A DNA stretch of 64,000 nucleotides from Pseudofrankia saprophytica. GTDB taxonomy: Bacteria; Actinomycetota; Actinomycetes; Frankiales; Frankiaceae. The notes beneath the pieces are model-generated. The model did no database searches, was not told the origin of the DNA, and worked only from the letters and a program-made list of their open reading frames with translations. The stretch is taken from positions 893,097-957,096 of the forward strand of contig NZ_KI912267.1 in NCBI RefSeq assembly GCF_000235425.2, given 5' to 3'. Shown one piece after another: positions 32,040 through 48,377 of the stretch (position 1 is its first letter; every line of letters begins with the position of its first letter). A program made the translations under genes and the position numbers.

Positions 32040-35000
32040 ATGACTAATCCACCGTCGTCAGCACGGCCCAGTCCAGGCAGACCGGGGCGGCAATCGACGC
32101 CTCCCCAGGTGAAACCCGGCCCGTTCCAGGACTTCGTCCTGGAACTGTGGAATTTCCGAGAGTCTTGCGGGTCGCCGCCCTTCCGACAGATGGCCAGCTC
32201 CGTGTCGGGCACCAGCAAGGACTCGATGCGACGCGTCGTGGGCAGCGGAAAGCTGGAGCCCTTGGCTCGGGTGCTGGAGTTCGTGAAGGCACTCGACGGC
32301 GACGAGTCCTACTGGACCAACCGGTGGAACCAGACCAACGCGGCTCTCCTCCGCGAACGCCGACCAGCCGCGCGGAATCCAGGTCCTCCACCCGCGGGCG
32401 CGACGGCGACCCCGTCACCGTCCACCTCGTCGCCGGCCACGCCCTCGCCGCCAGGGCCAGGTACACCGCGCCCTGCAATGTCCAGCGCCGCGAACTCCGA
32501 CCTGGCGTCCGGCCCAGTCGCGCACCCGTCCTCAGCCACGCCGCCAGAGGCGATGTCCACGCCGTCGCCGGCCACGCCCTCGCCGGCCGAGCCGAACGCA
32601 CCGCCCTCAGCGGTCTACGGGACGCCGAACTCACGCTCCACGACCGACCCGAGCGCTCAGCCGTCCCCGGTGTCGGCGCCGTCCTCGCCCGTGCTGTTCA
32701 CGCCCTCTCCGGTGGAGACGCACGCTCCGACCTGGAAGCCCGCGACGCCCGACCAGACGCCCGGACCGGACCCGCGCCCAGGCGGCCCACCGACGCCCTC
32801 CCCTCCGTGGGTCGAGCCGTCGTCCGAGGCCAGGGAGGTCGCGGACAAACTCGCCAGGACGGTCCTGGGTCAGTGGACGAAGGAACTAGATCTTCGGCGG
32901 ATCTGGGATCCCGCACCTCTTCCCGTCTCCTGGATGGAGGCTCCGCCAGACCTGGTGGAGCGCTGGGAGCACATCGACAGCGCCCTGCGCCAGCTGCGAA
33001 CGGAAGGGGCGCGAGGGGAACGGCTTGCGGCCGTCGCGCCGCCATGGCTCGCCGGCGGCGACACCCAGATCGCCGACATCTTCAACACGCTTCCGACGCG
33101 GCGCCTAGTGGTGCTGGGCGATCCGGGCTCGGGCAAGTCGATCCTGCTCGGCCGCCTGGTCGTCGACCTGCTCAGGGAGCGCCGGCCCGGTGGCGCGGTG
33201 CCCGTGATCGTGTCGGCGGCCTCCTGGAACCCGACGGCTCAGGATCTGTGGCCCTGGTTGACCGGCAGGCTGGTCGCCGCGTACCCGGGCCTGGGCCGGC
33301 CGATGCCGGGCCAGCACTTCGTCCGGCGTTCACACCGCGTCCGCGAGGTGGACGCGCTGCGCGAAGCGAACCTGCTGGTACCGGTCCTCGACGGCCTCGA
33401 CGAGATCCCTGGCCGAGTCCAGGCACAGGCCATCGCGAAGATCAACGAGGCGTTGCCCCCCGAGGACGGCATCGTCGTCTCCTGCCGCGTCTCGGAATTC
33501 CGCAGCGCCCTGCGCGCGGCGCCCAAGCTACGGAACGCGTTCGGCATCACCCTGCGCGATCTTGAGCCGGACGCTGTCAGGAACTACCTCGAACACGACG
33601 CCGGAGACGACCGGTGGGATCCGATCATTCCCGTCCTCGGTGGCAGTTCGCCGGTCGCGCAGGTGCTGCGGGTCCCGCTGTACGTCAGCCTGGCACGCAC
33701 CATCTACAACCCCCATTCCGGAAACCTCGGGGCTGGCGCGGCCGGGCGGCCGACTGGCGTGGGCCGGAGTCCGGGTGAGGCGCCTCGCGGAGGCCTGCCG
33801 GACCCGGAGGAGCTCCTCGACGAGGAACGCTTCCAGACGCCGGACAAGGTGAAGGACCATCTCTTCCGCGCCTTCATCCCGGCGGCCTATCGCCGCACGA
33901 CACCATCGCCGGGCCCGCGGGGCCCGACGCCGGCCGGCAGATGGTCCCGACGCATAGGCGGCCCCGGGCGTTATACAGCCGAGCAGGCCGAACGGTGGCT
34001 GACCTATCTCGCCAGGCACCTGAAGCGCAACGCGGACAACGTGACCGACCTGGACTGGTGGGATATCCGGCGAGCTGTGCCGCGGCCGCTGGCCGGGGCT
34101 GTCGTGGGTGCCATCTGCGGTCTCGCCACAGGGCTCGTCGCCCTCACCGACCCTCGGCTCGGCGTCGGCCTGGGAGTGGGGATGCTCACGGCGCTGGCCG
34201 TAGCCCTCCCTGTGCGGTTTCTCGCCGATCGGCGCCGCTCCGAGGCGGCTGGGAGCCACCCAAACGGGCGGATCCCGCTGCGGAAGGACCGCACACTGGC
34301 CAGCAGCCTCGTCTGTGGCGTCGTGGGCGGCCTGGCCGGCGGAGTCCTCGGCGGCGCCGCCAGCATGGTCGGCATAGGCACGGCATCCGGACTGCTCAGC
34401 GCGACCGCCGGGGCTCTCGCGGTCGGCCTTGGGATCGGCGCGAGCGGCGGGCGGCTGGGCGGTGCGCTGGGTGCAACGGCGGGAGGGTGCGCCACCGCGC
34501 TCACGGCGGGTGTCGGTCAGGGCGTGCTCCCCGCGATCATCGACGGGCTCGCGATCGCGCTGGGCGCCGGGTTCGCGGTCGGGGTCGGCGGGGCCGATGA
34601 GCCCGCCGAGAAGCTGCGCTGGTCCTCGGCTGGCCTTGTGGGCGGCCTCGCCATCGGGGCGGGTGTCGGGGTGGGCGCCGTCCTGGGGCTCGGTGCGAGC
34701 CTGTTCAACGGCCTCATCGCCGGCCTGACGGCTGGCGTCGCGGCCGGCCTGGCGACGGGGATGCGCGGCGCGGCACCCACGGATCTGACGTTGGCGGCCG
34801 GGCCCAGGACGCTGTATGCCCGTGACCGGAAGACCTTCGCGGTCGTCACGACCATCTTCGGCGTCACCATGGTCTTCGGCACCTATGTGCCTGAGGGCTA
34901 CAACGTGAGCCTCGGCGCCGCCTTCGCGGGCGCCCTGACCATAGGGCTCACCGGCGGCTTCCTCCATGCCTGCTGGGGGACGTTCGCGATCGCGCGTGCC

Positions 35001-35153
35001 TGGCTCGCGATACGCGGCGAGCTTCCTTGGGACCTGATGGGATTCCTCACCGACGCCCACGAGCAGCGAGGCGTGCTGCGCCAGGCCGGCGCCCATTACC
35101 AGTACCGTCACGCCGAGCCCCAGCGCCACCTCGCCGAGCGCGCCGACCACTGA
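32040..35153 (+). CDS. XRE-HTH/NACHT NTPase with multi-TM C-terminus
   Basis: This 1037-aa protein has an N-terminal XRE-like HTH (about residues 30-95: PFRQMASSVSGTSKDSMRRV and LEFVKALDGDESYWTNRWNQ). A long Pro/Ser/Thr linker follows, then a NACHT ATPase with Walker A LGDPGSGKS (about 359-367) and Walker B VLDGLDEIPG (about 448-457). From about residue 680 a glycine-rich, multi-pass membrane region contains many zipper-like helices (VGAICGLATGLVAL, GLIAGLTAGVAAGLATG). NACHT STAND proteins are innate-immune-type switches; here the likely output is the membrane module. AAGG precedes the ATG. Specificity unknown. Confidence 0.85.
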   Translation: MTNPPSSARPSPGRPGRQSTPPQVKPGPFQDFVLELWNFRESCGSPPFRQMASSVSGTSKDSMRRVVGSGKLEPLARVLEFVKALDGDESYWTNRWNQTNAALLRERRPAARNPGPPPAGATATPSPSTSSPATPSPPGPGTPRPAMSSAANSDLASGPVAHPSSATPPEAMSTPSPATPSPAEPNAPPSAVYGTPNSRSTTDPSAQPSPVSAPSSPVLFTPSPVETHAPTWKPATPDQTPGPDPRPGGPPTPSPPWVEPSSEAREVADKLARTVLGQWTKELDLRRIWDPAPLPVSWMEAPPDLVERWEHIDSALRQLRTEGARGERLAAVAPPWLAGGDTQIADIFNTLPTRRLVVLGDPGSGKSILLGRLVVDLLRERRPGGAVPVIVSAASWNPTAQDLWPWLTGRLVAAYPGLGRPMPGQHFVRRSHRVREVDALREANLLVPVLDGLDEIPGRVQAQAIAKINEALPPEDGIVVSCRVSEFRSALRAAPKLRNAFGITLRDLEPDAVRNYLEHDAGDDRWDPIIPVLGGSSPVAQVLRVPLYVSLARTIYNPHSGNLGAGAAGRPTGVGRSPGEAPRGGLPDPEELLDEERFQTPDKVKDHLFRAFIPAAYRRTTPSPGPRGPTPAGRWSRRIGGPGRYTAEQAERWLTYLARHLKRNADNVTDLDWWDIRRAVPRPLAGAVVGAICGLATGLVALTDPRLGVGLGVGMLTALAVALPVRFLADRRRSEAAGSHPNGRIPLRKDRTLASSLVCGVVGGLAGGVLGGAASMVGIGTASGLLSATAGALAVGLGIGASGGRLGGALGATAGGCATALTAGVGQGVLPAIIDGLAIALGAGFAVGVGGADEPAEKLRWSSAGLVGGLAIGAGVGVGAVLGLGASLFNGLIAGLTAGVAAGLATGMRGAAPTDLTLAAGPRTLYARDRKTFAVVTTIFGVTMVFGTYVPEGYNVSLGAAFAGALTIGLTGGFLHACWGTFAIARAWLAIRGELPWDLMGFLTDAHEQRGVLRQAGAHYQYRHAEPQRHLAERADH

Positions 35154-35524
35154 CCCACGCGCTGGTCGCCGAGCACGCCGGCGGCCGAGCGCGCCCGGGC
35201 CGCCCGGCGCATGCCGCCGTCGCCCGCACCCGCGCCGCACACATACGCCCAGGTCGCGTGGCCTCGCGACCGGAGGGCCACGCCAGAGCCGCCGGCGAGC
35301 GCGCCCCCCCCACCCCGCGCCGCGGCGTCCGCGTCCGCGTCCGCGCCACCCGAGGTTGGCGCAGGGCGTGCGCCAACCTCGCCCATCAATGTGTGCGCCA
35401 TTCTGCGTTTGAGCGCGCCATGAGACAACCATTGCCTTTCGCGAACCCACTTCTAACAATTCTGGTCATGCACCACGCCGCCGGCACGTCCCCACCCTGC
35501 CCGCACCGGGCAAGAGAAAGGGTG

Positions 35525-35548
35525 ATGACCATGGAAACCTACGACTAA
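35525..35548 (+). CDS. possible leader peptide (7 codons)
   Basis: The short frame ATG ACC ATG GAA ACC TAC GAC ends at TAA, with GAGAAAGG just upstream at 35513-35520 and a GTG one codon before. It stops 40 bp before the hairpin at 35589. It could be a regulatory leader peptide for the downstream operon. The evidence is only the ribosome-binding site and position, so confidence is low. Confidence 0.2.
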   Translation: MTMETYD

Positions 35549-35588
35549 GAGACGGCCGGCGCACCCGACCACTCTGAGAAACGGGGGG

Positions 35589-35628
35589 CGGGCGGCGCCG
35601 GGAGACCCACGTCTTCCGGCGCCGCCCG
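35589..35628 (+). terminator. strong hairpin, possible attenuator
   Basis: The outer stem is CGGGCGGCGCCGG/CCGGCGCCGCCCG (35589-35601 with 35616-35628). It continues inward with AGAC/GTCT to a 4-nt loop, giving about 18 pairs. It lies between the tiny frame and the OmpA-like gene and could terminate read-through or attenuate the operon. Confidence 0.55.
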
Positions 35629-35746
35629 TGGTCTTCCTGAAGGTCTCGGCTCGGGCAGCGCGACGAAAATCCTCACGAGAAAAAGCCATCCTTTCCTGGA
35701 CCGCCTCACCATTCTTCCCCCGTCGACCCTTTGTTTAGGAGGAGAT

Positions 35747-36304
35747 GTGGCCGACAACCTCCGGCAGACCCGATATGCCCGTCCGGGCCGGTCCCGGCGC
35801 AGGGGCGGGTCGTGGCTCCTTCTCGCGGGCGTTCTCGCCGTCGTCCTGGGCGTGGGCTGGTTCGTCCTCGCGCCAGCCGGCACACCGCCGCCCGCGATCG
35901 CCGCGGCACCGCACGCGAGCCGTCTCCTTCCGAACGTCTCAGGGGACCCGCTGGGGCCGCTGCCCGGGTGCGACGGCGAGGTCACGATTCCCGCCATCCT
36001 GCTGTTCGACCTGGACTCGGCGCGGCTCCGTCCCGAGGCGGGCGCGACGCTGCGCGACTGGGCCAGCGCCCACCAGTGCGGCGACCGCCCCATCACGGTG
36101 AGCGGCTACGCGGACGGGCTTGGCGACGACAACCCCGGCTACCTGCTCGATCTGTCCCGGCAGCGGGCATCCGCCGTCGCCGACGCGCTCGTCGACGGCG
36201 GCCTCGAGCGGGCCCGCATCACCGTGCGGGGCCACGGCGCCGAGGGCGCACCCCCACACATCGCCGCGCCCGAGTTCCGGCGCGTGATCATCAGGATTGG
36301 TTGA
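35747..36304 (+). CDS. OmpA-like peptidoglycan-binding protein, membrane-anchored
   Basis: This 185-aa protein has a basic cytoplasmic N-terminus and one membrane segment (SWLLLAGVLAVVLGVGWFVLA, about residues 22-42). Its outer OmpA/MotB-type domain reads ILLFDLDSARLRPEAGATL, VSGYADGLGDDNPGYLLDLS, RQRASAVADALV and ITVRGHGAEG. Such domains bind peptidoglycan. The GTG at 35747 follows AGGAGG at 4-bp spacing. It is first in a tight run of genes: the next starts 5 bp after its stop. MotB, ZorB and ArfA-type proteins share this layout, but no MotA-type channel partner is evident here. Confidence 0.83.
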   Translation: MADNLRQTRYARPGRSRRRGGSWLLLAGVLAVVLGVGWFVLAPAGTPPPAIAAAPHASRLLPNVSGDPLGPLPGCDGEVTIPAILLFDLDSARLRPEAGATLRDWASAHQCGDRPITVSGYADGLGDDNPGYLLDLSRQRASAVADALVDGGLERARITVRGHGAEGAPPHIAAPEFRRVIIRIG

Positions 36305-36309
36305 TCGAC

Positions 36310-37137
36310 ATGGAAATCACGCGAGGTGCTCGTCCTCTGCGGTCGGCCGTCGGCCTGGCCCTGTCAGCCGTCATCACGCTGACCGGCGTGGGCTGCGCGA
36401 GCCACGGCAACACCCACACTGCCGTCGACGACTGCTCGGCGTACCAGGACCCCTACAGCCGGGCGCCGAGCGGAGTGGCGCCCTCCCTCCAGGTGATCGC
36501 CGTGGATGTGCCCGACAACGGCGAGGGCATGGAGCAGACGGTGCTCGACGTCACCAAGCCGATCATGGCGGACGCGCTCGAGCACGGGGCCTTCGTCCAC
36601 CTCCTGACCAGCGGCGGTGTCGACCAGGAGATCAGGACATCGCCCTGCATGGCCGGGATCAACGGCTCCCAGTTCCTCATCGCGTCGGGCTCGCGGGCGC
36701 ACGACCGGGCGGACTGGACGGACAAGGGAGACGAACTGGCCGTCATCGCGGGCGCCTTCACTCGGGAGCAGCCCGTCTCCCCGCATGGCAGCCTCACCAG
36801 GGTTCTCGCGGTCGTCGGTGGCGTCGTGCGCGACGCCCGGGCGTCCGGAAAGGTCGGCGACATCGACGTCACCGTCGTCACCAACCTTCTCGGTAACACC
36901 ACGGCCGAGGACTGCCTGAGCATGGACAACATGACATTCCGACCCGACATCGCTGAAAAGATTGTGGACCGCTGTTTCACCTCCGGCCAGGTGGGGGCGT
37001 TCGACGGTATTCATTCGCTTCGTTTCGCCGGGGTCGGTGGCTACGCGCGCACGACGAATCAGGTACTTCTCGCCGAAAGTGTCGCCGAAGCACTCGGTCC
37101 CCGTCTCAGCCCCATGTTCAGGCAGGGAGCACAGTGA
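36310..37137 (+). CDS. exported protein of unknown function, possibly vWA-like
   Basis: This 275-aa protein has a signal peptide ending in LTGVGCASHG; the cysteine resembles a lipobox, though position -3 is glycine. The mature part has a hydrophobic strand VIAVDVPDN followed later by FVHLLTSGG, LTRVLAVVGGVVRDA and DVTVVTNLLG, an alternation that suggests a Rossmann-like von Willebrand A fold, but the standard DxSxS site is absent. Cysteines recur (CSAY, SPCMAG, EDCLSM, DRCFT), possibly in disulfides. I do not recognise the family. It overlaps the next gene by 1 bp (TGATG). Confidence 0.75.
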   Translation: MEITRGARPLRSAVGLALSAVITLTGVGCASHGNTHTAVDDCSAYQDPYSRAPSGVAPSLQVIAVDVPDNGEGMEQTVLDVTKPIMADALEHGAFVHLLTSGGVDQEIRTSPCMAGINGSQFLIASGSRAHDRADWTDKGDELAVIAGAFTREQPVSPHGSLTRVLAVVGGVVRDARASGKVGDIDVTVVTNLLGNTTAEDCLSMDNMTFRPDIAEKIVDRCFTSGQVGAFDGIHSLRFAGVGGYARTTNQVLLAESVAEALGPRLSPMFRQGAQ

Positions 37138-37757
37138 TGGGCCAGGAAATCGTAGGTGCGTCGCACCCGTCCTCCGCCACGTCGACGATGACCATCGAGG
37201 ACCACCGCGGGCCCGCCGCGGGGATCCTTTCCGACGACGCAGGCGCCGCCGGACCGCCAGAGGGTCGCTCGGGTCGCCTGCGCGAGCCCTGGGAGCACCA
37301 CCTCAGGCCGCAGTATCTGCGCAGTCGGCACCCCCTGGCCGCGACCGTCGCCCTCGTCGTCGCCTCGGTCGTGTGCCTCCAGTTCATCGCCTCCGACGCG
37401 GTCGAGCGCCTCGCGCTGGGCATGTCCCTGCTTCTGTGCACCGCCGGCGCGACCCTGGCGGGCAACGCGGGCGGGCTCGAGCGTTACCGGACCGCTCTTG
37501 CCCGGGTCATCCGAACCAGCCGCGACCTGGAGCAGCGCCGGAAGGCATTGGAACTGCTCCCGCCTCGGTTCGTCGTCCGCCGCCGCAAGGTCGTCGCCGG
37601 AGCATGTGTGGCTCTCGGCGCCCTGGCGCTCGTGGTCGCCGCCTGGCGCACCGACGTCCACGACGACGCCTTCGCCCTGGTGATCGCGGCGCTGACGGTG
37701 CTCAGCTGCTCGGCGCTGGGCTGGTACCTCGGCTCGCTCATGCGCCCACTCGACTGA
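37137..37757 (+). CDS. four-TM membrane protein, unknown
   Basis: This 206-aa protein has a polar N-terminal tail of about 60 residues and then two hydrophobic helices (PLAATVALVVASVVCLQFIA and LALGMSLLLCTAGATLAGN). A charged linking helix follows (LERYRTALARVIRTSRDLEQ), then two more hydrophobic helices (KVVAGACVALGALALVVAA and ALVIAALTVLSCSALGWYL). I do not recognise a family. GGGAG sits 7 bp before the ATG, which overlaps the preceding stop. It is third in the envelope operon. Confidence 0.75.
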   Translation: MGQEIVGASHPSSATSTMTIEDHRGPAAGILSDDAGAAGPPEGRSGRLREPWEHHLRPQYLRSRHPLAATVALVVASVVCLQFIASDAVERLALGMSLLLCTAGATLAGNAGGLERYRTALARVIRTSRDLEQRRKALELLPPRFVVRRRKVVAGACVALGALALVVAAWRTDVHDDAFALVIAALTVLSCSALGWYLGSLMRPLD

Positions 37758-37788
37758 TCGCCCTTCGTCCTCGGAGGAGGAGCAACTC

Positions 37789-38898
37789 ATGAAACTGCTG
37801 TCCCCCAGGCACCGCCTGCGCCCCGAAAAGGTGGCCAAGACCGCACTTCGCGGCATCGAGAGGACTATTGCCAGTCCCGATGCCAGGCCCGGCCTGGTCG
37901 ACGGGCAACGCGATATCGCTCTGGCCCAGATCGACTCCGGAACGCATCAGCGGACCGGGCCGCATGACGTGAAACGCGCCGAGCTTGACGCCCAGATCAG
38001 CAGGAACGCCCGACGTCGAACCGCCAAGCTCGCCGTCATCAGATCGCGACGGGAACAGGCGAACAGGCAGTACGACGCGGAGCGATCCCATGCCGACGAC
38101 TGGCGGCTAGCCGGACTCGGCTGGCGGTTCACCTCCGTCCGTACCTCCGGATGGCTGCGCGTCCTGCTGCTCATGTTCCTGGCGGCGCTGGACTTCAAGG
38201 TGTTCGCCGACGCCTGGGCCTACGTCAACCGCGCCGAGTCGGGCCTGGTGCACTATCTGCTGGGCGGCGGAGTCGGGCTGGGCGTGTTCGTCGTCGGCAT
38301 GGCGTTGGCCCACGGGCTGAGCCAGGTGTTCCTCGACCGCGCGCAGCGCGGCTTGCTGGAAGACGCCGACGCGGGCCTCGTGCATCTGGACGAGGATCTG
38401 CGCCGCCGGCTCGTCCTGGCGCGGCCGGTACTTGGGCGGGTCGTGATCACGGGGGTCATCTTCATGGTTCTCGTGCTGCTCGGGATGCTCGTGCGGATGG
38501 GCGCCGACCTGAACAGCGCCGACCGGCCCGCCGTCATCATGCAGGCACTGATCCCGCTCGTCGGCGTGGCGGCCGAGTTCTGGCTGACCGACCCGCTGGA
38601 CCGTCCGGAGCGCCTCGCCGGCCACAGGGAACGCAGGCTGGCCGGTCCGGGATGGCTCGAGCAGCTGCGCGTCAACGCCCGCACCCGCGAGGAGACGAAG
38701 ATCGTCGCTATCGCGACGGAGGGTGAAGACGCCAAGAACGTCCAGCGCGCGACCTACGGACACGCTCGTGACCTCGTCTGGGTGGCGCAGACCGACGCCG
38801 GTGTCATCGACCTCGAACCGCTTGACGTGCACCAGTCCGGCCCACACCCGTCAGCCATCAGCCGGCCGGAGCCGTGGGCTCGCCGGCACACCGACTAA
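37789..38898 (+). CDS. membrane protein with basic N-terminal helix and four TMs, unknown
   Basis: This 369-aa protein has a long charged, helical cytoplasmic N-terminus (about 1-115, including RNARRRTAKLAVIRSRREQA). Four hydrophobic segments follow: LRVLLLMFLAALDFKVFADA, YLLGGGVGLGVFVVGMALAH, RVVITGVIFMVLVLLGMLV and MQALIPLVGVAAEFWL. The charged C-terminus spans about 275-369. GGAGGAGGAG precedes the ATG at good spacing, and the preceding gene ends 31 bp upstream. The family is unknown to me. Partner of the OmpA-like protein is a guess from the operon. Confidence 0.75.
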   Translation: MKLLSPRHRLRPEKVAKTALRGIERTIASPDARPGLVDGQRDIALAQIDSGTHQRTGPHDVKRAELDAQISRNARRRTAKLAVIRSRREQANRQYDAERSHADDWRLAGLGWRFTSVRTSGWLRVLLLMFLAALDFKVFADAWAYVNRAESGLVHYLLGGGVGLGVFVVGMALAHGLSQVFLDRAQRGLLEDADAGLVHLDEDLRRRLVLARPVLGRVVITGVIFMVLVLLGMLVRMGADLNSADRPAVIMQALIPLVGVAAEFWLTDPLDRPERLAGHRERRLAGPGWLEQLRVNARTREETKIVAIATEGEDAKNVQRATYGHARDLVWVAQTDAGVIDLEPLDVHQSGPHPSAISRPEPWARRHTD

Positions 38899-38930
38899 CC
38901 CGGCCGGCGGCGACGCCGGAAGGTATGCGC

Positions 38931-38966
38931 GGCCGGTGGCGCCCAGCGCTGGGTGCGCCACCGGCC
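38931..38966 (+). terminator. hairpin terminator within envelope gene run
   Basis: Perfect 12-bp arms GGCCGGTGGCGC (38931-38942) and GCGCCACCGGCC (38955-38966) surround a self-complementary loop, 32 bp after the four-TM gene. It probably ends the first transcript or reduces expression of the PIN and Hsp70-like genes beyond it. Confidence 0.6.
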
Positions 38967-39036
38967 CGCGGCCCAGTGACTGACTCGTCGCCGCCGCCCG
39001 GGCGACCGTTGCCGACAGGACCTCGGAGCCTAGAAG

Positions 39037-39720
39037 ATGACGCTCACTCAGCCCCTTTCACCGCTCTATCTGACGCTGACCGTGTTGGGGCTCGTGATGT
39101 CGGCGCGAATGATCCCCGGGCTCCTGCTCGGCCGTGGGCTGGGCTCGCTGCTTCTGCCACGAGGCCTGCTGCGTGCGTTGGTCCTCCTTCTGGTGTTCGC
39201 GGCGCTGACCAGTGTCGCGGTCAGGGCCGCGAGCGACACGGCGATGACTACCAAAACCGACAGAAGTCCACGGCAGATCTACGTCGCCGACAGCAACATC
39301 TTCATGAACCGGCCCAAGGGCGCTGCCGCGCCCTGCGTGGCCCTGATCGAGAGCGCCTACCTGGAGAACCCGGCCGTCTACCTGTACATCCACCAGGTGG
39401 TGATTCTTCAGGAGGCACTGACGTCCGTGAACGACCCGGACGGGGTTCAGAGGTCGAGGCTCGACTTGGTGGCTGGCTACCGTCGCATCCCGGTCGCCAC
39501 GCCGCCACCCGCGGGTGATCTGGAAACGGTCTCCAGGATGTTCGACCTCAACGAGCGTTTCAACCTCAATGATCTGACGCTCCTGGAGACCGCCCTCCGG
39601 CGCGGAGTCCCTCTCCTGACCACGAATACAAAGATGCGTGGCCAGATCGATGGTCATGCCTCACGGAGGCAGCGGTACGGCGGCGTACGGCTTGTGGACC
39701 CCTGCCCCGGCCTTACATAG
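39037..39720 (+). CDS. membrane-anchored PIN-domain nuclease-like protein
   Basis: This 227-aa protein has two hydrophobic N-terminal segments (about 8-33 and 43-63) and then a PIN fold. Strand one is IYVADSNIFM with D85, then VVILQEAL with E126. The later acidic helix is FNLNDLTLLETALRRG with D179 and E184, and the last strand VPLLTTNTKM has N197 where many PIN ribonucleases have Asp. It therefore looks like a membrane-tethered, possibly active RNase. Most PIN toxins are soluble and have an adjacent antitoxin; none of the standard antitoxins is here. Confidence 0.78.
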   Translation: MTLTQPLSPLYLTLTVLGLVMSARMIPGLLLGRGLGSLLLPRGLLRALVLLLVFAALTSVAVRAASDTAMTTKTDRSPRQIYVADSNIFMNRPKGAAAPCVALIESAYLENPAVYLYIHQVVILQEALTSVNDPDGVQRSRLDLVAGYRRIPVATPPPAGDLETVSRMFDLNERFNLNDLTLLETALRRGVPLLTTNTKMRGQIDGHASRRQRYGGVRLVDPCPGLT

Positions 39721-39747
39721 CCCGCGGGCCGCGGATGCCGGAAATCA

Positions 39748-39939
39748 ATGACTGACGATAGGGCTGACCCACCGGTCCGCGGCCGAAGGTCTTACGAATC
39801 CGACCTCGACAGGGCGCTCTGTCGTGCCGTCGAGACACCACCACGCGTGAACGGCGGGACGCCCGCGGGAGACCTCTCTCGTCTCTGGCACCAACCGCCG
39901 AACCACGCGTCAATCCGACCCGCCGCGGGGAGACAATGA
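39748..39939 (+). CDS. small protein of unknown function (63 aa)
   Basis: This 63-aa, polar, proline/arginine-rich reading frame sits between the PIN and Hsp70-like genes. Its stop overlaps the Hsp70-like start by 4 bp (ATGA), and the PIN stop is only 27 bp upstream, so it is likely translated and coupled. No conserved motif is recognised and it may be a co-factor or only a coupling frame. Confidence 0.5.
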   Translation: MTDDRADPPVRGRRSYESDLDRALCRAVETPPRVNGGTPAGDLSRLWHQPPNHASIRPAAGRQ

Positions 39940-41732
39940 TCAGTAGATGGCCAGTGGTGGCCGCCATCGACTTCGGTACCCACAGCACTGGCTTCGCCTG
40001 GACCGAGGTCACCGAGGAGAACCGCGACCCGCGCCACCGCCGCCCGCTCGCCCGGTTCACCTGGCCGGGGGCACCGCACGGCGCGAACTTCCCCAAGGAC
40101 CTGTCCGCGCTACTCCTGGGCGCGAACGGCGAGGTAGTCGCCTGGGGGCATGAGGCGAGGCGAGAGTGGGTCGACCGGGTGGAGACCGGCCACCACGGCC
40201 ACGCCTACATCACCGGGTTGAAGATGGCCCTCAAGGCAGATGCCTACCACGGCCCCAGGCAACCAGGAACCGGCGCCTGGACCGTTGACACCCCGGCAGC
40301 GGCGTTTCCCCTTGTCGTCGCCTCGCTGCGCCGGATGTTCCAGCTCGCACTCGACGACATCCAGAAATGCGGATATCGCGAGGACCAGATCCGCTGGTGC
40401 CTGACCGTCCCGGCGATCTGGGACGACGCGGAGAAGCAACTCATGCGCGACGCCGCGCGCGCGGCGGGTATGCCAGCCGACCAGGAGCGTCTGCTGTTCG
40501 CGATCGAGCCCGAGGTGGCCGCGCTGCACTGCCAGATCCATCTGGCAAGAGTGTTCGGCACCCCGGACGAAACGGCCGACGTCACCGACATCGGCAGTCG
40601 TTTCCTGGTGGTCGACTGCGGCGGCGGTACCGTCGACATCACCTCCTACCGGGTGGACACCAGCCCCGACGGACAACCTCAACTCAGCCAGTTGAGCCGG
40701 GCGACCGGGGGCAGGCTCGGTTCCGAGTACATCGACGAGGAGTTCGTCAACAAGGTGCTTGTTAACCGCCTCGGCGGCTTGGAGGTGATCGACCGGATCC
40801 GCGCCCGATCCCCGCGAGCGCTGCTCGAGATCCTCCAGGCATGGGAGGGGGTCAAAAACTCCATGACCGCCCACCTCGACGAATCCAGCGACGGGGTCGT
40901 GGTCGATCGCGACGTGCTGCTGCCCCTTCCCGGCGAGGTGCGGGACCTGCTGGACGAGGTCGCGCTGGAACGCATCGCCGCGTTGCCCGGCGGCCGCAAC
41001 CGGATCCAGGTGTCCGCTGAGGAGACCCGAACGCTGTTTGAGTCCGTCGTCGGGCCCATCGTCGTACTGGTGCGCGACCACCTCGCCGAGATGGTCGCGC
41101 ACGACGGCCCCGCGACGGCTCCGGAGCACCTGCTGCTTGTCGGCGGCCTGTCCGAGTCGCACTACCTCCAAGCCCGGCTGCTGCGAGAGTTCGGCGACAC
41201 AGTTCGGATCATCGTGCCCCCACAGCCGTCGGCCGCCGTGCTGTTCGGGGCCGTGCACTTCGGCTATGAGCCGGAGATCATTCGTATGCGGCGCACCCGG
41301 TACACCTACGGCTGTGCCTCCGGCCAGCAGTATGACCCGGCGCATGACCCGGTGGACCGATGGTTCCAGGACGACCGCGGGCGCGACATGTGCCGTGGCC
41401 GGTTCGACATCTTCGTCCGCAACGGCGATGAGCTCGCGCCTGGCCAGGAGATCACTCACCGGTTCGTGCCGAACTACCGCGCCGAGAAGCGCGCCAGCTT
41501 TGGCTTCTACCGGACACAGAGCCGGACACCGCGGTACGTCGACGAGCCCGGCTGCGAAACGATCGGCGAGCTGTCCCTCGAATACGGCGAGGAGATGATG
41601 GCCCTGCCCTTCGAGCGGCGTGGGCTGACCGTGCGACTGCGGTTCGGCGAGACCGAGATCCGTGTCATTGGCGCGACTACCGACACGGGCCTAGAAGCGA
41701 TCATCACCCTGCGGCTCGACACGGCATATTGA
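39936..41732 (+). CDS. Hsp70/HSPA12-like ATPase
   Basis: This 598-aa protein has an actin-like ATPase fold as in DnaK but divergent, closest in style to HSPA12-type Hsp70s. Phosphate 1 is AAIDFGTHSTGFAW (about 9-22), phosphate 2 is LVVDCGGGTVDITSY (about 225-239), and the adenosine motif is LLLVGGLSESHYLQ (about 398-411). The C-terminal 160 residues are beta-rich and not a normal DnaK substrate-binding domain. It lacks dnaJ and grpE neighbours. Such orphan Hsp70s occur with conflict and stress operons. It ends the seven-gene run. Confidence 0.82.
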   Translation: MISRWPVVAAIDFGTHSTGFAWTEVTEENRDPRHRRPLARFTWPGAPHGANFPKDLSALLLGANGEVVAWGHEARREWVDRVETGHHGHAYITGLKMALKADAYHGPRQPGTGAWTVDTPAAAFPLVVASLRRMFQLALDDIQKCGYREDQIRWCLTVPAIWDDAEKQLMRDAARAAGMPADQERLLFAIEPEVAALHCQIHLARVFGTPDETADVTDIGSRFLVVDCGGGTVDITSYRVDTSPDGQPQLSQLSRATGGRLGSEYIDEEFVNKVLVNRLGGLEVIDRIRARSPRALLEILQAWEGVKNSMTAHLDESSDGVVVDRDVLLPLPGEVRDLLDEVALERIAALPGGRNRIQVSAEETRTLFESVVGPIVVLVRDHLAEMVAHDGPATAPEHLLLVGGLSESHYLQARLLREFGDTVRIIVPPQPSAAVLFGAVHFGYEPEIIRMRRTRYTYGCASGQQYDPAHDPVDRWFQDDRGRDMCRGRFDIFVRNGDELAPGQEITHRFVPNYRAEKRASFGFYRTQSRTPRYVDEPGCETIGELSLEYGEEMMALPFERRGLTVRLRFGETEIRVIGATTDTGLEAIITLRLDTAY

Positions 41733-41911
41733 TCATGTGCGCGAGATCGGTGTCTCGTCAGGAGCCTGCAGGGACCCTGTCGACATGGCGCTGGCGCACT
41801 TGCGGATCAGTGACGGCCACACATCATGATCGCCATGCTCGGACAGTTCAGGGTCGCCCGAACCATGTCCGTTTCGATCACCGAATCGTGATCATTGAAG
41901 GTCCCGCGAAC

Positions 41912-41965
41912 AGGTGGTGTGTGGGCGTGGCAGGGATCGAACCTGCGACCGCTCGCTTGTAAGGC
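41912..41965. repeat. att site, left copy (tRNA-Val 3' fragment)
   Basis: These 54 bp are identical to 48296-48349. They span from the anticodon stem through the 3' end of tRNA-Val plus 10 flanking bases. The sequence diverges at once on both sides. This is not a functional tRNA because the 5' half is absent. Confidence 0.85.
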
Positions 41966-42332
41966 CGAAGCCTGCGAGCGCTGTCCTGACCAGCCTTTTC
42001 GCACCACCCGCGCGAACGAAGACGCAACAGGCGAATTGTCTTCGGATAGGGTAGCAGGTCCCAGCCATCTGTCGCGCGCCGCTCACTCCTGCAAGCAATC
42101 GCTTGCAGGAGTGCGCAAGCATCGCTCACTTGCCAGCGCCTCGATGCTCCCTCGGTAGCCCGCACGCACGCGCACCCGCCGTCACGCTGAGTAGCCAGAC
42201 AAGTCATTGATGGTGTCAGCCGTAGGTCACGCTCCAGCAAGGCGAGTACCGCGCTGGCCGAGGTTCGAGTCAGGTCAGAACGTGAATCGGTCCCATTACA
42301 GACGTCAACCGCAGGCGTGAGATGATCGGCAC
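41966..42332. other. left-end non-coding region of the element
   Basis: The 367 bp between the att copy and the PIN-like gene hold CGAAGAC/GTCTTCG inverted 7-mers (42017-42023, 42038-42044) and the hairpin 42084-42113. These may be integrase arm sites or a terminator. No gene is seen. Confidence 0.45.
42084..42113. repeat. 13-bp-arm hairpin near left end
   Basis: CACTCCTGCAAGC (42084-42096) pairs with GCTTGCAGGAGTG (42101-42113) across a 4-nt loop AATC. The GCTTGCA core recurs in the palindrome at 46721-46748 in the same element. Confidence 0.6.
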
Positions 42333-43706
42333 GTGAAGCAGGCTTTCCGCGCATGGTACCCGCTCGATGACGAGGAAAAGAAGGAAATTTACAAGTCAGG
42401 GATTGTAGTCCTTGATACGAATGTTCTCCTAGAATTATACCGATTCTCGACCGAAACGCGAGATGAGGTACTTACGGTTCTCGCCAAGGTTCAAGACCGA
42501 CTCTGGATTCCATATCAAGTCGCGCTCGAATTTCATCGAAACCGGCTCGTGACGATGGGAAACGCGGGGAAAGAGGCGACTGAACTTTTCAGGGAAATCG
42601 CCAGCTCCGAGAGCAACGTAATCGAGAAGTTCCGGACAGCTGCAAAGCGGCGCGGGATTCGTGACCTAGACGAGTCGCGAATCGCAGCTAGCTTTGACGC
42701 GCTACGTTCGCTTGCCGGCGAGCTTGGGCCACAAGAGCCGTTCGAGCTTCCAGACAGCGCAAGTGATGATGCGATACTGAGCCGAATTACAGACCTGTTC
42801 GATGGCAGGGTTGGCCAAGAATTTGACTCTGACCGGCTAGCACGTGAATCAACAACGGGAACCAAGCGCCTGGCCGCCAAGATTCCTCCCGGGTATGCGG
42901 ATACTAAAGAGAAGGGAGTTGACGCATCGCTAGGTGACTACTTTGCGTGGCGTCAGATCCTCGATGAAGTCCAGCGTGAGCCACGCAGTGTGCTTCTAGT
43001 GACGAACGATCAGAAAGAGGACTGGTACCAGAGAATCAAGGGAAAAATCTTGGGTCCCCGACCCGAACTGTCGGCAGAAATCATGAAGGTCGCCGGGGTG
43101 CGACTCCATCTTGCTACGACGCAGACGTTCCTAAGTCAGGCAAAAAGATATCTCGATGTATCAGTCAGCGATCGCGCGGTTGATGAAGCAGCAGCGGAGT
43201 CCGAGCCTGGAAGGCCCGATTTTGATAGGGTTGTGGCAGACCTCTTAGCAGAAACTGGGCGAGCTCATAGGGGTCCCTCCGCAGGATTGGAGCGATATCG
43301 CGCATTTGAGTCTCTATGCATGAACGCTCTGAGGGAACTTGGATGGCTCGCGACATCGACAGGGCGAGGAGACTATGACGCCGAGGTTCCGCTCGCCACA
43401 CCGGACGGGAATCCGGCGGGGCGCATAATATTTGACTTTTCCACCATAGAGGCCTTCCGGGGAAACTCCGGAGCCAGGGGCCGAGTTGTTCGACTTGAAG
43501 AGCGAATGCGGAATATGGTCGACCGGTACCCATATCCGGTCGTCCTCGTGAATCCCGGACCTGATCCGATTACTTTCCAGACACCTCCCAGCGGGAGGTA
43601 TTCATGCCCTTGGGGCGACTACCCTCGCTTTCAGTCGATTACACTGAGAAATCTCTTGACCGGCTCTTTTGATCTTCCCGTTGAGGGGATCGTTCCAGCC
43701 GAGTAA
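42333..43706 (+). CDS. PIN-like (DUF4935-type) nuclease with C-terminal domain
   Basis: This 457-aa protein begins with a PIN-like domain: GIVVLDTNVLLELYRFSTE, RLWIPYQVALEFHRNRLV, then SLGDYFAWRQILDE and VLLVTNDQKEDWY. These are the acidic positions of the PIN_8/DUF4935 family found in defence islands. From about residue 310 a separate domain follows (MNALRELGWLA, GDYDAEVPLATPDG, IIFDFSTIEAFRG, YPVVLVNPG) that could be a nuclease-like or sensor domain; I cannot assign it. Base composition is far lower in GC than neighbours, a sign of transfer. The start is GTG. Likely cargo effector against invaders, by inference. Confidence 0.83.
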   Translation: MKQAFRAWYPLDDEEKKEIYKSGIVVLDTNVLLELYRFSTETRDEVLTVLAKVQDRLWIPYQVALEFHRNRLVTMGNAGKEATELFREIASSESNVIEKFRTAAKRRGIRDLDESRIAASFDALRSLAGELGPQEPFELPDSASDDAILSRITDLFDGRVGQEFDSDRLARESTTGTKRLAAKIPPGYADTKEKGVDASLGDYFAWRQILDEVQREPRSVLLVTNDQKEDWYQRIKGKILGPRPELSAEIMKVAGVRLHLATTQTFLSQAKRYLDVSVSDRAVDEAAAESEPGRPDFDRVVADLLAETGRAHRGPSAGLERYRAFESLCMNALRELGWLATSTGRGDYDAEVPLATPDGNPAGRIIFDFSTIEAFRGNSGARGRVVRLEERMRNMVDRYPYPVVLVNPGPDPITFQTPPSGRYSCPWGDYPRFQSITLRNLLTGSFDLPVEGIVPAE

Positions 43707-43795
43707 TGCTCGCACGATGTGCTAGTAGCCGGGAGTCTTCCCGGCCCACTGCTCGGCCTCATTGATAAGGATGCGGCGCTGGTCTGACCGGTGGG

Positions 43796-43879
43796 GTAGC
43801 GGGTAGCGGCAGGAGTCGGGGCACGTGGCCCCACGCAAGCCATTCGGTGGGCTTCCGCCGCGTGACCGCTACCCGCTAC
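43796..43879. repeat. inverted repeat pair 1
   Basis: GTAGCGGGTAGCGG (43796-43809) is inverted as CCGCTACCCGCTAC (43866-43879), 14 of 14 pairs with a 56-bp spacer. Each arm is itself an internal tandem of GTAGCGG. Confidence 0.75.
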
Positions 43880-43910
43880 GTCGGGCCATTGTTGCAGCGT
43901 GTCGGGGGTA

Positions 43911-43950
43911 GAGGGTGTAGCGGCGGGTGTAGCGCCGCCGCTACACCCTC
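43911..43950. repeat. inverted repeat pair 2 (hairpin)
   Basis: GAGGGTGTAGCGGCG (43911-43925) is perfectly inverted at 43936-43950 with a 10-nt loop that carries another GGTGTAGC. Confidence 0.75.
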
Positions 43951-44124
43951 GCCCAGCCGCTACAGGCGCCGTGAGACACGAAGGCTCGTCGAGTCGGCAG
44001 AGCGGCGCCCCGGACGCGGTGTGGCGATCAAGTGTGAAGTCGTCCGCGTCGTCGCCCGCCACGCGACGGGTGTAAGCCGGCCGATCGCCATGTGGCGGTC
44101 GATCGGGCCGCGCGGCGCCGGGAG

Positions 44125-44208
44125 GTAACGGGTAACCGCTCGTTCGGTCCGGCGCGGGCGCTGGGAGCCGTTTCTGGGCCGCGCTCCGATGATGGGGTTA
44201 CCCGTTAC
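44125..44208. repeat. inverted repeat pair 3
   Basis: GTAACGGGTAACC (44125-44137) is inverted as GGTTACCCGTTAC (44196-44208), 13 of 13 pairs with a 58-bp spacer. It mirrors pair 1 with G to A changes. Confidence 0.75.
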
Positions 44209-44241
44209 ACCTGGACGTTCATGCAGCTCAGACCACGTGCG

Positions 44242-44293
44242 GGGTGTAACCGCGTGTGTAACTCGGCGGTTACACCCTTCGCTGGCGGTTACA
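44242..44293. repeat. inverted repeat pair 4 plus extra copy
   Basis: GGGTGTAACCGC (44242-44253) is inverted as GCGGTTACACCC (44266-44277). A further GCGGTTACA follows at 44285-44293, overlapping the end of the small gene. Confidence 0.75.
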
Positions 44294-44558
44294 TCGCCGG
44301 GCGATGGATTGCGGGGGACGTAGGTGCGCCGGTCCAGCCGTTCCAGGTGTCCGGGACCAGCGCGGCGACGACGGCCGCGAGTACGTCTCGGTCGGATGCG
44401 ACGTCGTCCGCTGGTCCGTAGACGAGGATGATCGTGGTGTCGCCGAAGATGCCGACGAGCATCGCCCCCTCGGGGAGCGTGGCGACCTGCGCGGCCAGTT
44501 CGGCCGCTGTGGTGCCGGGGGCCACCGTAACGGTGGCTACCGGGCTGTGGGCGCTCAC
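44289..44558 (-). CDS. small protein of unknown function (89 aa)
   Basis: This 89-aa protein starts at GTG (VSAHSPVATVTVAPGTT), overlapping the stop of the gene before it by 4 bp (GTGA), so the two are coupled. It shows an alternating strand/helix pattern (AMLVGIFGDTTIILVYGPAD) and ends TWNGWTGAPTSPAIHRPAM. I do not recognise a family. It is probably an element-encoded accessory protein. Confidence 0.65.
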   Translation of the reverse strand: MSAHSPVATVTVAPGTTAAELAAQVATLPEGAMLVGIFGDTTIILVYGPADDVASDRDVLAAVVAALVPDTWNGWTGAPTSPAIHRPAM

Positions 44559-45037
44559 AGCGCCGCCGCCGACCGCGTCCGGCCCATGCCTGCGAGCATT
44601 GCGGGGACCTGGAACCTGTCGGTCATCTCCCAGATCACCCAAGACCGTGACGTCCCGTCCGCGATGACGATCACGGGATGCGGGACGATCACTACGCCAG
44701 CTTCCCACGCGCACGGGGGCCGAACCCCGCATGTGATCACGGCACCTGGGCCGTCCCACAGCCCCCGTTCGTCGACCAGGAGCCGCGCGACTTCCAGCGC
44801 CACCATGCTCCCAACGGGAGACACCAGCGCCGGGCAGAGGGCCAACACGCGACCTGCGCCCTGAGCCACCAGCGACCGGGCGATCGTGTCCGGCCAAAAC
44901 CGCTTCGCCGGAACGAACCTCGGCGCTGGCGACCCGTCCACCAGCACGCCCGCGCGCATCGGTAGCGGATACGGCCGCCAGGGCACCGGAACGGGTCCTG
45001 ACTCGTTCCCGTCCAGTTCGATCGTCACCACCGGCAT
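44555..45037 (-). CDS. protein of unknown function (160 aa)
   Basis: This 160-aa protein starts at MPVVTIELDGNESGPV, with GGGAGG 4 bp upstream. It is rich in hydrophobic strands (GRVLALCPALVSPVGSMVAL, GAVITCGVRPPCAWEAGVVI) and has no clear membrane helix or catalytic motif. It is cotranscribed with the 89-aa gene and divergent from the regulator at 45322. Function unknown. Confidence 0.65.
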   Translation of the reverse strand: MPVVTIELDGNESGPVPVPWRPYPLPMRAGVLVDGSPAPRFVPAKRFWPDTIARSLVAQGAGRVLALCPALVSPVGSMVALEVARLLVDERGLWDGPGAVITCGVRPPCAWEAGVVIVPHPVIVIADGTSRSWVIWEMTDRFQVPAMLAGMGRTRSAAAL

Positions 45038-45321
45038 GGCGCCTCCCACGGTCGCGCTCGACAAGGCCATCCGCGCACGCGGGCGGCCCGGAGTCAGTCA
45101 GACCGACATGTCCGATCCGACCAGCAAGCGCAACTATCCGGGGTCAGGAGAACGCCGAAAGTGACAACTCGGGATGGCACCCGGAGGACATCGGCGCGCG
45201 TGTCCAGGACAGCGATGGGGACATTTTTCGGGCCATTCGCCAGGACGGTGCCCGTCCGGGCTGACAGCGCGATGCACGCCCGCGACGATCAGGGGATCGC
45301 CACCGAACCGCCGAGGAAGCC

Positions 45322-46701
45322 ATGCCCCCGAGCCCCCGACCGCGCACGCTCCTGGCGCTCTTGCTCGTCCAGCGGGAGTGGACCGTAGAGCAGTTCCGCA
45401 GCGCATACGCGGATACCGCGACCAGCCTTTACCGCAAGGCTCACGCCGTCAGCGACCGCACCGCGAAACGCTGGGTTGCGGGAGCCATCGACCGCCCGCA
45501 CCCGGTTTCGCGGCGCGTCCTTGAGACGATGTTCGACGCTGACGTGAAGGCCCTCTTCGGGCCGCCCACCGCCACCGCCGGCCGTGACACGTCACTCGTC
45601 CCAGGCGGGATGGTCACCGATGCGCAAACGGGCGACGATGGTGATGCCATGCCCACCGCTCCAGCGGAGGTGAGTTCAGCGAACCGCCGTGACCTGCTGA
45701 ACGCCGGAATCGCGCTTGCCACGACCACCGCCACCGGCGACCCTCTCGAACGGGCCGAACGTATTTCTCGTGCCATGGCCGCAGCGGCGCCCGACCCGCT
45801 TACGCTCGCCCAGCTCCAACACGGCATCCACTACCTTGCGGGTAGCTTCGCCGCCACCTCACTGACCGAGCTGACACGCCCGATCGAGCGGGCCTGGAAC
45901 GACGCTGAGTCCTTGCTGGAGACACGCGTATCCGGCGGCACCCGTCGGGATCTGGAATCCGTGGCAGGGCAGTATGCCTTCTATCGGGGACGCCTCGCCG
46001 CAGATATGGGCGACGACACCGCAGCGCTCACCTTCCTTGTTCTCGCCGGGCAGCACGCCAAAGCAGCGGGCGACACCCTTCTTTCCGGGTCGGTCGCCGC
46101 CATGCGCTCCGAACTCGCGTTCTTCGCCGGTGACTTCGGTGGCGCAGCCGCCATTGCCGCAGAGGGGGCGATCGGCGCTCACCCGTACCTGGTGCCCGTG
46201 CTCGCCGGTTCCTGTGCTCGCGCGTTCGCTCAAGTCGGGGATACCGACGCCACGCTGACCGCGCTACGCACCATGAGCGACAACGTGTGGACCGGAAAAA
46301 TTCAGCCTGGCGTCGACCCCGGCGACGAGGAAGCCTACGAGGCGTACAGCGCCATCGCGCTGGGCTACCTCGGGCACGGCGACACGGCGGAGGTGCACGC
46401 TCGTAATTCGCTGGCATTGGTAGGGCGGGAAGGGCGTCACATGCAACTGGCGGGAACCCATCTCGCGTTGGCCCGTGCATTCATCCGGCGGTCCAAGCCC
46501 GAGCCGGAGCTAGCAGCGGCCGCGCTCCGCGATGCCCTGCACGCCGGGCAACGCAGCGGTGGCGGGCGCACCACCGGCCGCGCTGTCGGCATCTACCAAC
46601 ACCTCGCCGCCAACCCACGTTGGGCGCGGCTCCCCGCTGTCCGGGACCTGGGCGCGCTACTGCGCGAGCATCGATCACTCGCCGCAGCTTCGGCGGTCTG
46701 A
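45322..46701 (+). CDS. regulator-like protein with helical (TPR-like) C-terminus
   Basis: This 459-aa protein begins with a helical region that looks like a DNA-binding domain (WTVEQFRSAYADTATSLYRK and AVSDRTAKRWVAGAIDRPHP). A long alanine-rich helical array follows (LAADMGDDTAALTFLVLAG, MQLAGTHLALARAFIRRSKP), like actinobacterial XRE/TPR regulators. AGGAAG precedes the ATG. It is divergent from the 44555-45037 pair and is the best candidate for the element's own control protein. A perfect palindrome terminates it. Confidence 0.75.
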   Translation: MPPSPRPRTLLALLLVQREWTVEQFRSAYADTATSLYRKAHAVSDRTAKRWVAGAIDRPHPVSRRVLETMFDADVKALFGPPTATAGRDTSLVPGGMVTDAQTGDDGDAMPTAPAEVSSANRRDLLNAGIALATTTATGDPLERAERISRAMAAAAPDPLTLAQLQHGIHYLAGSFAATSLTELTRPIERAWNDAESLLETRVSGGTRRDLESVAGQYAFYRGRLAADMGDDTAALTFLVLAGQHAKAAGDTLLSGSVAAMRSELAFFAGDFGGAAAIAAEGAIGAHPYLVPVLAGSCARAFAQVGDTDATLTALRTMSDNVWTGKIQPGVDPGDEEAYEAYSAIALGYLGHGDTAEVHARNSLALVGREGRHMQLAGTHLALARAFIRRSKPEPELAAAALRDALHAGQRSGGGRTTGRAVGIYQHLAANPRWARLPAVRDLGALLREHRSLAAASAV

Positions 46702-46720
46702 AGACGTTTACCAGCGCTTG

Positions 46721-46748
46721 CAGCCCGCTTGCAATTGCAAGCGGGCTG
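46721..46748. terminator. 28-bp perfect palindrome after regulator gene
   Basis: The arms CAGCCCGCTTGCAA and TTGCAAGCGGGCTG meet without a loop, 20 bp after the regulator stop, and are followed by CTTTT. It is probably an intrinsic terminator. Confidence 0.7.
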
Positions 46749-46890
46749 ACTTGGATCTTTTGGATGCGCCCGTTCGTTGGACAGGTGTGACCTGCCTCGG
46801 TCGCGACGACGCGACTCGGGGCGTCACGTCCCCTCAACCCAGCCCACCGTGCGCCTACTGCGCGCGGCGGCGTCTGCGATAGGAGTCTTC

Positions 46891-46992
46891 ATGACTGACC
46901 TCAGGAGCATTTCTTTTGGCCGCTTCGGACGCGAACGACCGGCGAACGATCGCCCGCATCGCCTCCCACACATCCTGGGCACGGACCCCTGA
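46891..46992 (+). CDS. possible small protein (33 aa) overlapping next gene
   Basis: An ATG with AGGAG 5 bp upstream opens a 33-codon frame (MTDLRSISFGRFGRERPAND) that overlaps the next gene's start in another frame. It may be a coupling leader for the TTG-start gene. No family is recognised. Confidence 0.25.
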   Translation: MTDLRSISFGRFGRERPANDRPHRLPHILGTDP

Positions 46993-47197
46993 CCGAACCG
47001 CCCGTACACAACCCGCACGCAGCCGCTTCCGCGACCGGTTCTACGAACAGGTCGATCCTGACGGAGTCCTTGCGCCCGACGAACGGGAGCGCCGGGCCGA
47101 GAGTGCCCGTCGCGCCTATTTCACAGCGCTGGCCCGCCGGTCCGCACTCGCACGGCGAAAGAACAAGAACCGAGAGTCCCGACAGACCAACCGCTAA
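46916..47197 (+). CDS. small conserved basic actinobacterial protein
   Basis: This 93-aa basic protein reads RRTIARIASHTSWARTPDRT, then FYEQVDPDGVLAPDERERRA and ARRAYFTALARRSALARRK. I recognise this pattern from many actinobacterial accessory regions, where it sits next to XRE-type regulators; no function is established as far as I know. The start is TTG, with AGGAG 8 bp upstream. It is convergent with the integrase, and the two are separated by a 50-bp palindrome. Confidence 0.75.
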   Translation: MAASDANDRRTIARIASHTSWARTPDRTARTQPARSRFRDRFYEQVDPDGVLAPDERERRAESARRAYFTALARRSALARRKNKNRESRQTNR

Positions 47198-47215
47198 CCC
47201 AATAGCGTCGACATA

Positions 47216-47265
47216 GCGAAGGGCGGTTGGGCTCGGCCACGTGGCCGAGCCCAACCGCCCTTCGC
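47216..47265. terminator. 50-bp perfect palindrome between convergent genes
   Basis: The 25-bp arms are perfect with no loop, centred on CACGTG; the left arm begins GCGAAGGGCGGTTGGG. It separates the small basic-protein gene and the integrase end and is probably a bidirectional terminator. Confidence 0.75.
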
Positions 47266-47276
47266 GTTTCTCGAGC

Positions 47277-48224: not shown

Positions 48225-48295
48225 GAAAGTTTACCTCTGTTGCAGCGATATCCGACAGGGCCGCAATCCGGCCTGACTGAATCGGCGCAGGTCAG

Positions 48296-48349
48296 AGGTG
48301 GTGTGTGGGCGTGGCAGGGATCGAACCTGCGACCGCTCGCTTGTAAGGC
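48296..48349. repeat. att site, right copy (in tRNA-Val)
   Basis: This is the partner of 41912-41965, 54 of 54 identical. It covers the 3' 44 nucleotides of tRNA-Val and 10 bp beyond, so insertion restored a whole tRNA at this end. Confidence 0.85.
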
Positions 48350-48377
48350 GAGTGCTCTCCCGCTGAGCTACACGCCC
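48306..48377 (-). tRNA. tRNA-Val (anticodon TAC)
   Basis: This 72-nt cloverleaf has acceptor GGGCGTG/CACGCCC with discriminator A, and D-arm AGCTCAGCGGGAGAGC. The anticodon stem is CTCGC/GCGAG with loop CTTACAA (anticodon TAC), and the T-arm is GCAGG-TTCGATC-CCTGC. CCA is not encoded. The 3' half is the integration target. Confidence 0.95.

Follow-up and report, generated by a model that had tools for sequence, protein, structure and literature searches.

The first four genes (g1–g4) of a seven-gene run in Pseudofrankia saprophytica are, by sequence comparison, a second and strongly diverged copy of an OmpA–vWA–TM–TM cell-envelope cluster of the Frankiaceae; in Frankia, Parafrankia, and Pseudofrankia, the main copy occupies a conserved chromosomal locus. 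The run lies in a stretch of 64,000 nucleotides, which is called the window below. We consider with moderate confidence that the run is a composite, in which the diverged copy of the envelope cluster is followed by the separately acquired genes g5 and g7. The first-pass annotation had seen in it a single undescribed seven-gene system; the “undescribed” part of this proposal holds for g1–g4, a conserved gene set for which no description was found in the open-access literature and which is apparently undescribed, while the union of OmpA, PIN, and Hsp70 proteins in one system was not upheld.

All seven genes are directed rightward (+ strand), and the intergenic distances from g1 to g7 are +5, −4, +31, +138, +27, and −4 bp, so that the gene order, strand, and spacings proposed from the first reading are borne out by the ORF coordinates. 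The 138-bp gap between g4 and g5 (38899..39036, +) separates the four conserved genes from the remainder of the run. It does contain the hairpin noticed earlier, a strong one, the folding of which exceeds that of shuffled sequence (z −2.9); no site resembling a terminator, with its T run, was found at this hairpin, and a promoter and terminator scan of positions 35100–42400 found none. The genes g1–g4 form four open frames with high third-position G+C, and they are certainly real genes because their orthologues occur in the same order in other genomes. Codon bias of g5 and g7 resembles that of g1–g4, which, together with the common direction and the small gaps, makes co-transcription of the run possible.

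The distribution of the cluster was traced with g4 and g2. A g4 search of 58 relatives found the gene in 28 genomes, all of them Frankiaceae, and showed that the window’s own genome has another copy of it, which is more typical. This core copy (C1, about 958.4–961.8 kb, L030) comprises four orthologues in the same order as g1–g4. In the loci fetched from relatives, g1, g2, and g4 occur together in 12 of 12 cases (tblastn), and g3 was detected in 11 of the 12 (phmmer). When an alignment of g4 was used as the query against 84,980 species genomes (a contig scan with a single g4 sequence gave no match, and the alignment was needed), 20 loci were obtained, all from Frankia, Parafrankia, or Pseudofrankia. 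The 20 contigs, many of which come from the same genomes as the 12 loci so that the two sets overlap, carry g1–g4 in order, except that g1 is missing in one at the contig edge and g3, hidden by divergence, is missing in one.

The vWA profile built on g2 gave a concordant picture in the Frankiaceae sample of 35 genomes: 28 have one clear copy each, save the window’s genome with two, and one extra weak match (E 0.005) was seen in genome G011. All examined Frankia, Parafrankia, and Pseudofrankia genomes possess the vWA gene in one copy and the window’s genome possesses two; it was not found in three other genus groups of the family, one of which comprises five genomes. No further genome was matched by the g4 profile among 346 of the phylum, nor by the g2 profile among 296, and the g4 search of known plasmids gave no match. 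A methyltransferase gene lies upstream of the core locus, usually together with a Ser/Thr kinase gene.

The window copy of g4 is 30–33% identical to every core copy, whereas the core copies share 55–98% identity with each other. The window copy is therefore no recent duplicate: it is either an old paralogue or was imported from a lineage outside the sample.

The divergence is seen in g1 and g2 as well. The g1 gene (35747..36304), the start of which is preceded by the Shine–Dalgarno sequence AGGAGG, encodes a peptidoglycan-binding protein of the OmpA type, anchored by a transmembrane segment at the N-terminus. Its earlier assignment as an anchored OmpA-like protein is confirmed by the PF00691 score (52.7 bits at a curated cut-off of 27.2) and by one transmembrane segment. 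The protein retains the Asp of the YxDGxG motif and the Arg of LSxxRA, which are known peptidoglycan-binding residues. The core orthologues of g1 are lipoproteins with a lipobox-like cysteine, instead of which the window protein has a plain membrane helix (LLLAGVLAVVLGVGWFVLA) with no acidic residue.

The g2 gene (36310..37137) encodes an exported protein, probably a lipoprotein: transmembrane-segment analysis predicted a signal/lipobox, in agreement with the export suggested before. Its AlphaFold model, built on 14 sequences with a pLDDT of 78.7, has vWA domains as the best structural matches (Z about 12 over about 165 residues), and on this model the protein is of the von Willebrand factor A fold. 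In the core copies, the metal site (MIDAS) keeps Asp66, Thr163, and Asp192, and position 68 is occupied by a polar residue, Ser or Thr in all but one of the 13. The window protein still carries Asp66, Asn70, and Thr163 in a degenerate site, where Ser68 is replaced by Pro and Asp192 by Asn; moreover, it is devoid of two cysteines, aligned at positions 263 and 270, which are constant or nearly so in the core copies. With Pro68 and Asn192, the window copy counts as a diverged homologue of the core cluster and not as its equivalent. Taken together, the helix-anchored OmpA protein and the lost vWA metal site suggest that the partner of the window copy was probably lost or changed.

The two following genes encode membrane proteins, and neither these nor g2 matched any curated family. 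The orthologous family of g3 (37134..37757) was restricted to the Frankiaceae in our searches, the g3 profile giving only marginal other matches in the phylum sample. The g4 protein (37789..38898) has four transmembrane helices placed between two long, coiled-coil-like helical arms, one at each terminus. The description of both as four-TM proteins is right for g4; for g3, at least three transmembrane segments were predicted, three of them clear. The g4 model (pLDDT 67) gave no stable fold match, its best hit in the Foldseek/VIA-align comparison being a designed helical protein (Z 8.8).

Beyond the hairpin, the gene content is of a different nature. The g5 gene (39037..39720) encodes two transmembrane helices and a PIN-like domain. 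Of the “membrane-tethered PIN protein” of the first reading, the membrane part is thus retained, while the PIN assignment is weakened by a PF01850 score of 16.9 bits, under the Pfam cut-off of 23.6; the Asp and Glu positions typical of PIN look present by eye, and the last acidic position is represented by TTN. No relatives of g5 were found in 297 genomes of the class (E 1e-5), in 35 genomes of the family (E 0.01), or in plasmids. The small g6 frame (39748..39939) is present where a 63-aa protein had been proposed, but its coding status is doubtful: G+C by codon position is 0.70/0.62/0.67, compared with about 0.7/0.5/0.85 in the neighbours, and no family match was found in profile libraries. 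Because of this non-coding-like pattern and the lack of a family match, g6 is perhaps not a gene.

The last gene, g7 (39936..41732), encodes a divergent Hsp70-family ATPase. The earlier call of an Hsp70-type ATPase is substantiated by PF00012 (23.6 bits at a cut-off of 20.6) and by the ATP-site motifs DFGT, DCGGGT, and GG, which are largely kept in the homologues; among solved structures, it matched DnaK/Hsp70 only, in a comparison that included no HSPA12 model. Homologues with 32–38% identity were found in four other Frankiaceae genomes and eight Streptomyces plasmids. In three of the Frankiaceae loci (L047, L048, and L056), the homologue has a Ser/Thr kinase gene on one side and a coiled-coil gene on the other, the fourth locus ending at a contig edge. 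In the five Streptomyces plasmids that were read (L051–L055), the Hsp70 gene is followed by a coiled-coil gene of the same kind, and in front of the plasmid Hsp70 genes lies a small divergent gene, helix-turn-helix-like and with a weak match to DUF6003. A coiled-coil partner is therefore present downstream of every g7 homologue whose 3′ flank was read; this partner was not found in the window’s genome. Nor was an OmpA, vWA, or PIN gene of the run’s kind found in the neighbourhoods of the g7 homologues. The search of known phages with g7 yielded none, and viral contigs gave only distant partial Hsp70 matches. The Hsp70 and coiled-coil pair looks like an undescribed mobile unit, no description of which was found in the open-access literature.

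These data allow one to ask if the window copy is simply a decaying duplicate without function. Such decay would explain the change of the vWA residues Ser68 and Asp192 and of the two cysteines, all constant or nearly so in the core copies, as well as the loss of the Hsp70 partner and the non-coding look of g6. However, the four frames remain open with high third-position G+C. The OmpA peptidoglycan residues have been retained, as have Asp66, Asn70, and Thr163 of the vWA domain and the ATP-site motifs of the Hsp70, and we consider decay rather unlikely. In the composite reading that we prefer, the PIN-like g5 and the Hsp70 g7 would be separately acquired neighbours, brought together in a strain-variable region beside a tRNA-Val hot spot, and g7 would derive from the Hsp70/coiled-coil unit, having lost its partner here.

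The genomic setting of the run is as follows. A 6.4-kb integrative element (41912–48377) begins 180 bp past g7. It is bounded by 54-bp repeats and encodes a tyrosine integrase (47277–48224, − strand). The distal attachment site is an exact 54-bp copy of the tRNA-Val 3′ end (41912..41965), and the proximal repeat copy (48296–48349) lies within tRNA-Val(tac) itself (48296..48377, − strand). The element also carries a PIN_8 protein (42333–43706) in a stretch of low G+C (0.58) and a 459-aa protein (45322–46701) which the searches assigned to no family. In congeners (L091, L093, L095, and L096), one to two 3′ fragments of tRNA-Val occur nearby in each genome. These extra fragments, found in several congeners, mark stacked integrations and hence an integration hot spot. 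To the right of tRNA-Val, synteny is preserved in six congeners; on the left side, which includes the run, there is none, so the run lies in a strain-variable stretch. On the other flank, a protein that combines a NACHT domain with several membrane segments at the C-terminus (32040–35153) is located immediately upstream of g1, and a Ser/Thr protein kinase fused to WD40 repeats is encoded at 28209–30539.

The first-pass annotation suggested a sensor of envelope damage or phage entry coupled to RNA cleavage, and proposed to look for recurrence of the OmpA, PIN, and HSPA12 genes together. The searches revealed no such recurrence: g5 is without relatives and the g7 homologues are never beside OmpA or PIN genes, which for these two genes is the outcome that the annotation had named as refuting its proposal. 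As to phage sensing, the only match to the defence models was that of the generic OmpA domain. Since g5 and g7 were not found with g1–g4 elsewhere, the seven genes probably do not represent one defence system, and the single-system reading was rejected after the g5 and g7 searches in the class, the family, and plasmids, and the survey of g7-homologue neighbourhoods, had revealed no co-occurrence.

A strain-specific assembly can nevertheless be real without recurring elsewhere. One can imagine a seven-gene system peculiar to this strain, composed of a rewired envelope copy, a PIN nuclease, and an Hsp70, in which envelope damage or phage entry leads to RNA cleavage. The genes are contiguous and co-directional with short gaps, they lie in a variable region beside the tRNA integration hot spot and adjoin the NACHT protein, and the lost vWA metal site would fit a new partner. 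Still, g5 or g7 never recurs with g1–g4 in the searches, the normal partner of g7 is a different protein that is absent here, a strong hairpin and the 138-bp gap precede g5, defence models recognise the generic OmpA domain only, and the PIN assignment is weak; this possibility therefore appears distinctly unlikely. The idea of a new envelope-sensing, RNA-cleaving response, in which the window copy is coupled to the orphan Hsp70 and to a PIN RNase held at the membrane, has in our estimate only a slim chance of being correct.

For the Frankiaceae cluster, the function can only be inferred, and we suggest an envelope-complex role. The OmpA protein g1 would hold peptidoglycan, while the vWA lipoprotein outside the membrane would bind a protein partner, in the core copies via its metal site. 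The g3 and g4 proteins may form a membrane platform whose long helical arms extend to the cytoplasmic side, and the whole complex could tie the wall to membrane or cytoplasmic partners during hyphal growth. The core cluster is the main useful result of this analysis, as a plausible lineage-specific wall–membrane complex of these filamentous bacteria, among which nitrogen-fixing symbionts are numerous. The window copy, in turn, reveals which parts of the four-gene cluster can change.

Among the known systems, Zorya shares with the run a membrane-anchored OmpA protein near membrane proteins, and we considered an ion-driven stator of the MotAB/ExbBD/ZorAB kind, in which g1 would correspond to MotB/ZorB and g4 to MotA/ZorA. 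The OmpA domain of g1 does follow one membrane helix, weak ZorB model matches were obtained (E 1.1e-5), and g4 has four membrane helices with long helical arms. The role of the acidic residue in helices of the ZorB type is known from MotB. In one Zorya system this residue is D24 (PMC11890865). The g1 helix is without such a residue, the core orthologues of g1 are lipoproteins without a helix anchor, and g4 has no MotA/ExbB family match, which makes a stator highly improbable. More generally, neither g3 nor g4 matched a MotA-like family, and the low-confidence g4 model had no clear fold match. PADLOC gave no match to the ZorC/D, ZorE, or ZorF/G effectors among the run and two tested neighbours. 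Membership in Zorya was thus rejected on the g1 helix and the missing effectors, and the ZorAB likeness noticed at first fails on the same points, with no MotA-like protein recognised; unlike Zorya, the run has no recognisable MotA-like ZorA, no ZorC/D/E, and no acidic helix residue.

What defines the vWA- or Hsp70-containing conflict systems of actinobacteria is either a MoxR ATPase or a GTPase (PMC7159879). The region has the ingredients Hsp70, vWA, PIN, and NACHT in common with them, and its host is likewise a multicellular actinobacterium. However, no MoxR ATPase or TRAFAC GTPase was identified among the run’s genes and the tested neighbours, and therefore neither core arrangement described there is present.

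With the OmpA-family peptidoglycan anchors (PF00691: Pal, YiaD, and YfiB), g1 shares the OmpA domain and the peptidoglycan-binding Asp and Arg; it differs from them in being actinobacterial, in having vWA and membrane proteins as partners, and in scoring far under all their equivalog cut-offs. The Hsp70 of the Hsp70/coiled-coil unit, found in Streptomyces plasmids and in Frankia, can be aligned with the whole of g7 at 32–36% identity, although g7 lacks both the coiled-coil partner and the kinase or small helix-turn-helix gene that flanks the unit. The nearest relative of g1–g4 is the core Frankiaceae cluster, from which the window copy is distinguished by its helix-anchored OmpA protein, its degenerate vWA metal site, and its other neighbours.
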